Shown: piece by piece, positions 12,226 through 45,004 of the stretch
How the letters are laid out: each line of letters opens with the position of its first letter
Position numbering within the stretch: position 1 is the first letter of the stretch
Assembly (NCBI GenBank): GCA_949300345.1
Contig: CASGDR010000007.1
Coordinates: 1 to 64,000 of the forward strand
Source of the DNA: an uncultured bacterium
GTDB taxonomy: Bacteria; Bacillota_I; Bacilli_A; RFN20; CAG-826
Length of the DNA: 64,000 nt
Reading direction: 5' to 3'
Made by a program: the position numbers and the translations under genes
Notes under the pieces: model-generated
The model's database searches: none
What the model saw: the letters and a program-made list of their open reading frames with translations, nothing else
What the model was told of the DNA's origin: nothing

Positions 12226-13347
12226 ATGCATCTGACCATCGTTAAAGAAGAACTGCTAAAAGGGCTCTCCACCGCCTACAGGGCCATTCCCAGCAAATCG
12301 CCCAACCCTGTTTTGACCTGCTTCAAGCTGGAGATGACCGGCAGGGGACTTGAGATCACTGCTTCCAACGGGGATACCACCATCAGGACTTTGGTGCCCC
12401 TTAGCCTCGGCAACGTGAAAATCATCCGCAACAACTCCGCCGGAGCCATCCTCACCAATGCCCACATCATTACCGAATTGGTCCGCAAGATGGATTCCGC
12501 CGAGATCGACATCGAGGTCCTGGACGGCTATGTCGCCAAGATCAGCGACGACCGCTCGACCTACATGCTCAACTGCATCGAACCCGACCAATATCCCGAT
12601 ATCGAACTAAGCGAAGCCCCCGGCGCCTTTGACATCGCTACCAAATCGCTCACCGATCTGGTCAAGCAGACCGCCTTCGCGGCTGCCATCAAGTCGGCCC
12701 GCCCGGTGCTGACCGCCATCAACCTCAAAGCTGAAGGGGGAACATTGACCGCTACCACCACGGATGCGGCCAGGCTTTCCCGCAAATTCGTCTCCATCGA
12801 TCCTTCGGTGGCCTTTGTCGCCAACATCCCGGCCAAGACCATGTCCGACATCGTCAACATGCTCGAAGGCTACGAAAAGGCGCGCATGAGCTATGGTAGG
12901 GAAAAGCTCCTACTCCGCTTCGGAAACACTACCGTCGCCTCCTCCTTGCTTTCCGGCGAATACCCGATTTCCGACAAGGTCATCCCCACGACCTTCAATT
13001 TCCACCTCGAGGCCAACGCTTCCGAGTTGGTGAGCGCCATCGAGCGCGTCGCGGTCCTAAATCCCGACGGAGCCCCGGTGGTCAAGCTCTCCATGTCTCC
13101 CGCAGGCGTTGAGGTCTCCACTAGGTCCGACCAATCCGGTTCGGGCGTGGAAAGGCTACGCACCGTCCAGTACACCGGACAGAGATTGGAGATCACCTTC
13201 AACGCCAATTTCGTGAACCAAGCCATCTCCGCCCTCAAGGGCACCGACGTCCTCATCTCCTTCGTCGGGGAAATGCGCCCCTTCGTCATCCGCAACCCCC
13301 AAGACGATTCCGTCGTGGAGCTGGTCACCCCGGTCAGAAGCCGCTAG
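12226..13347 (+). CDS. dnaN: DNA polymerase III beta subunit (sliding clamp)
   Basis: The ring-shaped clamp that tethers the replicative polymerase and serves as a docking platform for repair and initiation factors. The 373 residues contain three clamp repeats; the sequence begins MHLTIVKEELLKGLSTAYRAIP and ends with the conserved hydrophobic-pocket segment VVELVTPVRSR. An AAGGAGG ribosome site lies 8 bases before the ATG. A strong terminator follows, so dnaN appears separable from recF and gyrB. Confidence 0.97.
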   Translation: MHLTIVKEELLKGLSTAYRAIPSKSPNPVLTCFKLEMTGRGLEITASNGDTTIRTLVPLSLGNVKIIRNNSAGAILTNAHIITELVRKMDSAEIDIEVLDGYVAKISDDRSTYMLNCIEPDQYPDIELSEAPGAFDIATKSLTDLVKQTAFAAAIKSARPVLTAINLKAEGGTLTATTTDAARLSRKFVSIDPSVAFVANIPAKTMSDIVNMLEGYEKARMSYGREKLLLRFGNTTVASSLLSGEYPISDKVIPTTFNFHLEANASELVSAIERVAVLNPDGAPVVKLSMSPAGVEVSTRSDQSGSGVERLRTVQYTGQRLEITFNANFVNQAISALKGTDVLISFVGEMRPFVIRNPQDDSVVELVTPVRSR

Positions 13348-13421
13348 GAGGGCCAAAAGGCCTCTTCCAAGAGGAAAACGGGCCGAAATGGGTGGAAACA
13401 CCCGAAATGGAAAAAGCCACG

Positions 13422-13451
13422 GAAAATGCCTCGAATGGCATTTTCTTTTTT
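13422..13451 (+). terminator. Intrinsic terminator after dnaN
   Basis: A perfect 9-bp stem (GAAAATGCC / GGCATTTTC) with a 6-base loop is followed by T6. Confidence 0.88.
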
Positions 13452-13475
13452 ACTACTATGTAGTAAACTACGCCC

Positions 13476-21743: not shown

Positions 21744-21752
21744 TGATATAAT
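21744..21752 (+). promoter_or_regulatory. Extended -10 promoter of the SRP RNA
   Basis: TGATATAAT, a perfect extended -10, lies 5 bases before the expected RNA start. A good -35 is not visible, as is common with extended -10 promoters. Confidence 0.75.
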
Positions 21753-21756
21753 CCAG

Positions 21757-21840
21757 GAGCCATCGCGAGGTGGGATTGGCGAACCAGGTCAGGCGGGGAA
21801 CCGAGCAGCCTTAAACCTTTCCTTCCTGTGCGGTGGTTTT
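21757..21840 (+). ncRNA. ffs: Signal recognition particle RNA, small bacterial (4.5S-like) type
   Basis: The conserved apical domain is present: CAGGTCAGG, then GGGGAA, then AGCAGCC, with the GGAA tetraloop between. The ends pair as CCATCGC (21760-21766) with GCGGTGG (21830-21836), followed by T4. The RNA binds Ffh and forms SRP for co-translational targeting. It is the short form lacking an Alu domain. Exact ends are estimated. Confidence 0.93.
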
Positions 21841-21856
21841 CATTTATCATTTCATC

Positions 21857-42961: not shown

Positions 42962-43849
42962 CTATTTTATAGAGGCTTGGTAGATTTCCTCGATGGCCTC
43001 GCCAAGGTTGGCGTCGAATTCGGCATCGCTTTGCTGGGCCCTGAGGTTCTCCAATAAGGCACGGGAGAAGGAAGCGATCATTCCGTTATTGAGGGAAAGC
43101 AGGCGGCAAGCTTCGTCATTGGGATAGCCTCCGGATAGGGCAACCACCCTAACGACATGGGGATCTTCCATCAGGTCCCTGTAGATGTTTGCTTTGGTGG
43201 GAATCGAAAGCTTGAGCATGACCAAGTCCTTCTCGCCCAATTTCGATAGGCCTTCCTTCAATAGGTCGTGAAGAATCTGTTCGGCTTCTTCCTTGTCGGG
43301 GATGGTGATGGTGATTTCCGGTTCGATGATGGGCACCAATCCTTTGGCAATGACCTTGCGGGCTACTTCGAATTGTTGGTCAACCACTTCTTTGATTGCT
43401 TCCTTATCGGCTTTTCCGATGACGGAGCGTTCCTTGGTGCCGAAGATGTGGCGTTCCACGGCCCGGTCGAGCAGGGCATCGAGGTCGGGCATGGGTTTCA
43501 TCAGTTGGCATCCGTTTTTGACCTCGGCCAAGCCCTTATCGATCTTAAGGAAAGGAACGACGCCTTTTCCCTCATATAGGTAATCGGCGGTGTACTTGCC
43601 GTCGATCTTCCGATCCATAGTCATTTCAAAGAGGATCGCGCCCAATATGCGGTCAGAGTTGAAGGCGGGGCTTTTGATGACCCTGGTCCTCATCAGGTGG
43701 ACCAAATCAAACATTTCTTCGTCATTTGAATAGGCATCCTTGCCGATTCCGTATCCTGCAAGGGCTTTGGGGGTAGAGCCGCCGGATTGGTCGAGGGCGG
43801 CAATGAATCCCTGCCCGGTGCGCATGCGGCTGAGTTGGTCTTTGTTCAT
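42962..43849 (-). CDS. fda: Class I fructose-bisphosphate aldolase
   Basis: 295 residues. The class I sequence [19 protein letters not shown] opens the barrel; [13 protein letters not shown] carries one conserved lysine and LVPIIEPEI and KLSIPT the later active-site strands, the Schiff-base lysine being expected in LVMLKLSIP. This metal-independent aldolase, as in Staphylococcus, cleaves fructose 1,6-bisphosphate in glycolysis. AAAGGAG precedes the ATG. An inverted repeat lies in the leader, so the gene is probably regulated. Confidence 0.93.
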
Positions 43850-43897: not shown

Positions 43898-44161
43898 CTT
43901 GTTTATAAAAGTGAAGGGTTATGTGATGCCGTGGACGCCAATGGAAGGAAATAGCCATGTCGGTTCTTTGTCCAATGCGGGTTCTTTGAGCCCCAACACA
44001 AACCTCAACGGCCATCTCCTCTACGCAGGCTCTACTGCCAAAAAGTAAGGAAAAACTTACAAAATTCCTAAAATTTTTTAATTTACATTATTGGGTTTGT
44101 TAAGAAAAAAGCCTATATTTGTCGCCATTACTCATGTAAATGTTGAAAAAGATGTTTTCTA
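43898..44161. other. Intergenic stretch upstream of the structured RNA
   Basis: AT-rich, no supported gene. It contains a short GTAAG/CTTAC hairpin (44047-44061), two GGTTCTTTG copies near 43962 and 43980, and a possible promoter TTGGGT (44092-44097) with TATATT (44114-44119). Confidence 0.5.
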
Positions 44162-44339
44162 CGTCACAAAGAGAGATTATTCGCTTGTTTTCCAATCAAG
44201 ACCCAAGTACAATCCGTCTACCTGCCCTAGGCTCTCGACCTCGGCACTAGCCCCCTAGCCGAGCTTGAGGAATTTCTTAGGGTAGGTTTTTCTTTCTTTG
44301 CCCCGAGGGAAGACCCCTCGGAGTTTGGAAAATGTGACG
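44162..44339 (+). ncRNA. Candidate structured RNA, 6S-like architecture, unidentified
   Basis: Long-range pairing closes the element: CGTCACA (44162-44168) with TGTGACG (44333-44339) and TTTTCCAA (44188-44195) with TTGGAAAA (44325-44332); the 3' strands are contiguous and the 5' strands are 19 bases apart. Inside are a rod-like hairpin of 12 bp plus inner 3, 6 and 3 bp helices (44220-44287) and a 7-bp hairpin CCGAGGG/CCCTCGG (44303-44321). The layout (closing stem, open central region with a small 3' hairpin, long terminal stem, about 178 nt) recalls 6S RNA. The rod hairpin is also followed by TTTTTCTTTCTTT, so an attenuator of the downstream gene is the alternative. No known family motif was recognised. 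Confidence 0.5.
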
Positions 44340-44341
44340 CA

Positions 44342-44397
44342 AAGGACTAGGTCCTTGCCCTAACCTTGGCTATCATTACCGGGTCAAGAAGACTTGA
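44342..44397 (+). promoter_or_regulatory. Two small inverted repeats in the flavoprotein leader
   Basis: AAGGAC-TAG-GTCCTT (44342-44356) and TCAAG-AAGA-CTTGA (44384-44397) lie just before ATG 44406. The stretch 44354-44365 repeats GCCCTA of the upstream rod hairpin and could compete for its 3' arm. Confidence 0.4.
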
Positions 44398-44405
44398 GAA
44401 GACAT

Positions 44406-44945
44406 ATGAGCAAGAAAATCCTAGTGATATCATCCAGCCCCCGCAAAGGGGCCAATTCCGACACCCTATGCGACGAATTCATCAGGGGAGCCAAAGAAGC
44501 CGGGCACGAAGTTGAAAAGGTTGCCCTCCGCGATCTTAAGATCCATCCCTGCTTTGCCTGCTACTACTGCGCTTCGCACACCGACGAATGCGTCCAGAAT
44601 GACGACATCCCCCAGGTGATGCTGAAGATGGAACATGCCGATGTCGTGGTCTTGGCCACCCCGGTCTATTTCTATTCCGTAAGTGCCCAGATGAAGATGT
44701 TCATCGACCGTACCATGGCCAGATGGAGGAACTTCAAGAACAAGGAGTTCTATTACATCCTGACTTCCGGGGAAGACGAACCGAATACCATGGATACCAC
44801 CGTGGCGTGTCTGCGCGGCCTCGTCGATAGCCTGGAAGGATCAATAGAGAAGGGAATTGTCTATGGCAAGGGCCTCGATAAGCCCTGGGGCGTTCTATCC
44901 AAACCCTATGCCCAACAGGCCTATAACTACGGGAAAAACGCCTAA
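44406..44945 (+). CDS. NAD(P)H-dependent FMN reductase / flavodoxin-fold protein with Cys motif
   Basis: 179 residues. The N-terminal FMN phosphate-binding loop SSSPRKGANSDTL is at residues 9-21, and ATPVYFYSVSAQMKMFIDR is the standard flavodoxin-fold segment. CFACYYCASHTDEC, Cys spaced as in iron-sulfur flavoproteins, follows at about residues 48-61. It may be an iron-sulfur flavoprotein or a quinone/azo reductase. ATG 44406 is preferred to TTG 44394. Confidence 0.85.
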   Translation: MSKKILVISSSPRKGANSDTLCDEFIRGAKEAGHEVEKVALRDLKIHPCFACYYCASHTDECVQNDDIPQVMLKMEHADVVVLATPVYFYSVSAQMKMFIDRTMARWRNFKNKEFYYILTSGEDEPNTMDTTVACLRGLVDSLEGSIEKGIVYGKGLDKPWGVLSKPYAQQAYNYGKNA

Positions 44946-44967: not shown

Positions 44968-45004
44968 AAGCCCTCGGTTCTTAGATACCGGGGGCTTATT
45001 TTTG
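44968..45004. terminator. Terminator after the flavoprotein, likely bidirectional
   Basis: An 11-bp stem AAGCCCTCGGT/ACCGGGGGCTT is flanked by A6 and ATTTTTG. It separates the converging genes. Confidence 0.82.

Follow-up and report, generated by a model that had tools for sequence, protein, structure and literature searches.

A terminator-like hairpin and U-tract in the intergenic region upstream of an FMN reductase gene

Upstream of a gene for an NADPH-dependent FMN reductase lies an exceptionally stable hairpin that is immediately followed by a U-tract and has the correct orientation relative to the gene. With moderate confidence, we interpret this rod-shaped hairpin and its U-tract as a lineage-specific intrinsic (Rho-independent) terminator on the + strand, which may attenuate or insulate the FMN reductase gene or else mark where a short RNA ends. 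A preliminary description of the locus had instead proposed a closed structured RNA of about 178 nt (44162-44339). The helices that it named are present, but the long-range closure is at chance level, and the structural signal comes from two local hairpins.

The sequence analyzed here, referred to as the window, is a stretch of 64,000 nucleotides from a 1.05-Mb draft genome in 10 contigs; the genus comparison set comprised 36 other species. The locus is located within a 556-bp gap between two divergent genes, which encode an aldolase (- strand) and the FMN reductase (+ strand; start codon ATG at 44406). The two genes and the local structures between them are as follows:

42962-43849, - strand: class I fructose-bisphosphate aldolase, the divergent neighbor (PF00274, E value of 1.6e-8)
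44220-44287, + strand: rod hairpin of 68 nt with a 12-bp outer stem and inner helices (-35 kcal/mol, z of -4.4)
44287-44299, + strand: U-tract TTTTTCTTTCTTT at the base of the rod, its first T being the last base of the stem; resembles an intrinsic terminator together with the rod
44299-44324, + strand: small 3' hairpin with a CCGAGGG/CCCTCGG core (1.4% of shuffles equally stable)
44406-44945, + strand: NADPH-dependent FMN reductase of 179 aa with a flavodoxin-like fold, the downstream gene (PF03358, E value of 3.5e-26)

The outer stem of the rod pairs positions 44220-44231 with 44276-44287, and its 12 bp and inner helices are present as previously described. Its energy of -35.0 kcal/mol compares with a mean of -21.5 (standard deviation of 3.1) for its own shuffles, and its pair probability is 1.0 in every transcript tested. 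The tract UUUUUCUUUCUUU lies directly 3' of the rod, and no T-run follows the hairpin on the other strand. The rod thus combines two features of intrinsic terminators, namely, a stable GC-containing hairpin and a U-rich run immediately after the stem. Against this reading, the U-tract is broken by two C residues, and the stem is longer and more interrupted than that of a typical terminator. To rank the site, we took each T-rich run in the window and scored the best hairpin that ends at it. The rod with its U-tract came first among 162 intergenic hairpin-plus-T candidates, and in the overall ranking, only the signal recognition particle (SRP) RNA hairpin placed above it. The site is absent from the list of a default terminator scan, presumably because that scan is limited to short loops and simple stems. 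The FMN reductase gene is itself followed by an ordinary intrinsic-terminator-like site, at 44968-44997.

How such a terminator might work can be outlined from its position. A short transcript would begin upstream, perhaps near 44126; the rod would form while RNA polymerase reaches the U-tract, and most transcripts would end near 44295. Any read-through RNA would express the FMN reductase, making the site an attenuator or insulator; alternatively, the site could be the end of a short noncoding RNA. The orientation of the rod and U-tract fits a transcript that continues into the FMN reductase gene. That the site is transcribed, that termination occurs there, and which RNA would be ended are all inferred.

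The T-rich run had previously been suggested to permit an attenuator. This suggestion holds insofar as the terminator-like site is the strongest intergenic one in the window, but no antiterminator rises above chance. Among upstream sequences, the best partner for the 3' arm of the rod was equaled in 9.4% of shuffles; downstream, GCCCTA, put forward as a competitor for the same arm, was equaled in 47%, which is chance level. Since no alternative pairing that would open the rod outperforms shuffled controls, a riboswitch-like mechanism is unsupported, and no regulatory switch was identified.

We then considered where a transcript might start. Two possible promoters were found in the gap:

44091-44119, + strand: possible promoter TTGGGT-N17-TATATT (8/12 match, weak)
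44185-44213, + strand: second possible promoter TTGTTT-N17-TACAAT (8/12 match), predicted to start transcription at the rod base, about 44220

On the + strand of the 556-bp region, about 2.1 matches of 8/12 are expected by chance and these two were found, so the promoter evidence is weak; no match reached 9/12. The second promoter would allow for a separate, short hairpin transcript (44220-44295, about 75 nt), which we consider quite improbable. TTGTTT-N17-TACAAT would set the start at the rod base, and 2.6% of shuffles place the end of a -10 element at 44210-44215; yet this position was chosen afterwards and the figure is uncorrected, the promoter is weak, and the RNA has no relative. A start at the rod base is therefore only a lead. 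Two small open reading frames occur on the + strand of the gap. One, at 43926-44048, spans 40 codons from an ATG (43926-44045) or 49 from an upstream TTG; the 40-aa frame has no relative in the genus, and it is probably a chance frame or a decayed gene. The other, of 36 codons (44140-44250), runs at its end into the rod's 5' arm and could possibly encode a leader peptide, although similar frames are frequent by chance.

Folding of the whole interval gives an apparently strong signal. The + strand of 44162-44339 folds at -68.3 kcal/mol (z of -5.94 versus shuffles), and the - strand folds less well (z of -3.27). The excess stability of the exact interval over shuffles, -23.4 kcal/mol, surpasses that of all 1,117 equally long windows sampled (the best reached -19.2), a rank that is somewhat flattering because the interval was preselected for self-closure; a sampled window that overlaps it ranks third. 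The signal is local, arising from the rod hairpin and, more weakly, from the small 3' hairpin, whose 7-bp CCGAGGG/CCCTCGG stem was confirmed at 44303-44321. The 5' third (44162-44217) folds at chance level, with 83% of shuffles equally stable. Sampled windows at another place, 13344-13452 (+ strand), head the fold-excess list. This compact multihairpin stretch (minimum free energy of -41, z of -4.15) lies directly 3' of a TAG at 13345, ends in a clear terminator, GGAAAATGCC-TCGAAT-GGCATTTTC-TTTTTT, and has no Rfam match at E values up to 1; it could be a small structured RNA.

Closure of the interval was attributed to two long-range helices, of which the following pairings are present:

44162-44168, + strand: 5' strand of a 7-bp long-range helix, CGTCACA; indistinguishable from chance
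44333-44339, + strand: 3' strand of the same helix, TGTGACG; indistinguishable from chance
44167-44176 and 44291-44300, + strand: second long-range pairing, a 10-nt near-match of CAAAGAGAGA and TCTTTCTTTG

Both pairings exist, but neither exceeds chance, and the two do not occur together in the ensemble. Several perfect inverted pairs of 7 to 8 nt occur within a 581-bp region. As a control, we kept the two hairpins constant while shuffling the flanking parts of the 44126-44405 transcript, in 1,200 trials. A closing helix of 7 bp or longer formed in 40% of the trials, so long-range closure by itself is no evidence; the real total energy was attained in 4%. Pair probabilities in the full interval are about 1.0 for the 7-bp helix and about 0.01 for the CAAAGAGAGA/TCTTTCTTTG helix. 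When the RNA is ended at 44300, the latter replaces the 7-bp helix (0.996). The two helices are thus alternatives, with the 7-bp one favored once the RNA extends past 44339. The terminal repeat pair has a single exact occurrence in the genome, with no second copy.

These results bear on two further readings. According to the first, 44162-44339 is a discrete, species-specific structured noncoding RNA, about 180 nt long, that the 7-bp helix closes and that belongs to an unassigned class. The top rank of the exact interval in excess stability, the near-certain pairing of its closing helix, and the better fold of the + strand all agree with such an RNA. Yet we consider it rather unlikely given how often shuffled flanks close equally well, the unstructured 5' third, the lack of any relative in the genus, family, or order, and the terminator-like U-tract in mid-interval, which would cut the RNA. 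The second reading, which is very improbable, would make the RNA a species-specific new class of the same length and a two-fold switch controlling the FMN reductase, in which CAAAGAGAGA/TCTTTCTTTG would close the fold that stops at the U-tract and CGTCACA/TGTGACG the longer one. The long-range pairings and the 3' hairpin are best explained as accessory or incidental to the terminator-like site. More generally, an apparently large closed RNA with a strong overall z score may consist of two local hairpins plus chance long-range pairing.

The layout of the interval had also been likened to that of 6S RNA. The Rfam 6S model has no match anywhere in the genome at E values up to 10. No other Rfam family reaches its gathering score at the locus, and nothing credible appears there at E values up to 10; the proposed covariance-model check of 44162-44339 against 6S and other families thus yielded no credible match. 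With an E value of up to 0.001, Rfam 6S matched 19 of 147 genomes of the order, two of them in the same genus. We also used order-specific 6S models, a first one built from 8 of the 19 matched genomes and a broader one from 22. The 8-sequence model finds 6S in 7 of 37 genus genomes, the source genome not among them. The Rfam model covers the 6S of this order poorly: it detected 2 genus genomes, within a sample of the order, versus these 7 of 37. Unfiltered searches of the locus with the order-specific models (R2 and R3) yield only short background pieces scoring no more than 6.7 bits, versus 41 to 157 bits in relatives; default searches of the whole window give no match.

The conserved 6S blocks of the order, GTGTTGAA.GC, GAATCCTAA, and TTCC.ACA, are likewise missing from their expected places: GAATCC and TTCC.ACA are absent, and the sole GTTGAA, at 44142, falls outside 44162-44339. 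A transketolase gene (identified from reading frames, not a library scan) adjoins 6S in several of the relatives belonging to other families of the order; none lies beside the locus. A search of the literature on 6S in related groups yielded only general 6S work. A 6S-like bubble can be drawn at the locus, with a closing stem at chance level. It is extremely improbable, then, that the locus is the diverged 6S RNA of the source genome, acting on RNA polymerase. The rough agreement in layout (closing stem, small 3' hairpin, long inner stem) and the failure to detect another 6S in the genome speak for it; however, the model scores and missing blocks do not, and since 30 of the 37 genus genomes likewise lack a match, its absence here is not special.

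Searches for relatives of the locus returned only the locus itself. Searching 60 related genomes at the DNA level turned up no match, and a single-sequence covariance model, which detects only fairly close relatives and thereby does not prove absence, found only itself among 37 genus, 224 family, and 279 order genomes; matches in three other genus genomes had E values of 0.15 to 0.8, as expected by chance. Around the aldolase or FMN reductase genes of relatives, the model hit only a 23-nt chance piece, and around FMN reductase relatives from other groups, it found nothing. Upstream regions of related FMN reductase genes contain no comparably strong terminator site. One genus genome, G004, likewise has divergent aldolase and FMN reductase genes (the latter with 32% identity over 99 residues); about 111 bp separate them, versus 556 bp here, and the gap contains no comparable structure or strong terminator site.

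The larger gap, in which nothing conserved was found in the genus, raises the prospect of a relic or neutral insertion, that is, a functionless hairpin in an expanded intergenic region. We regard this as unlikely: the rod is far stronger than its own shuffles, and the whole RNA and the terminal repeat pair are single-copy, which argues against a repeated element. On the same grounds (terminal repeat pair found once, one copy by the RNA model), a repeated or mobile element was rejected. For a phage or plasmid origin, we found neither similar DNA nor any viral contig containing the 17-base core exactly. As for the reductase itself, it shares 33 to 39% identity with its best genus matches and up to 55% with proteins from outside the genus, e.g., from a Roseburia draft genome, so by sequence identity it may have been acquired via horizontal transfer. 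Transfer of the RNA together with the gene was rejected, as the relatives outside the genus have neither a match to the RNA model nor a comparable terminator.

A genuine terminator here would point to a short transcript on the + strand or to a leader under attenuation, before the FMN reductase gene. Such transcripts and leaders are common in bacteria, and the site is most likely an ordinary one.

Compared with known systems, the locus shares with 6S RNA (RF00013) a superficial layout of closing stem, small 3' hairpin, and long inner stem; unlike 6S, it has no sequence or model match, none of the conserved blocks of the order, and a closing stem at chance level. Like the bacterial small SRP RNA (RF00169), it consists of a single long rod hairpin and then a T-rich tail, but it has no Rfam match, and the SRP RNA of the window is already assigned at 21752-21849. 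It differs from an intrinsic terminator or leader attenuator in its long stem with inner loops, the two C residues in its U-tract, and the lack of an above-chance antiterminator, yet it has in common with them a stable hairpin, an immediate U-rich run, and a coding gene downstream on the same strand.
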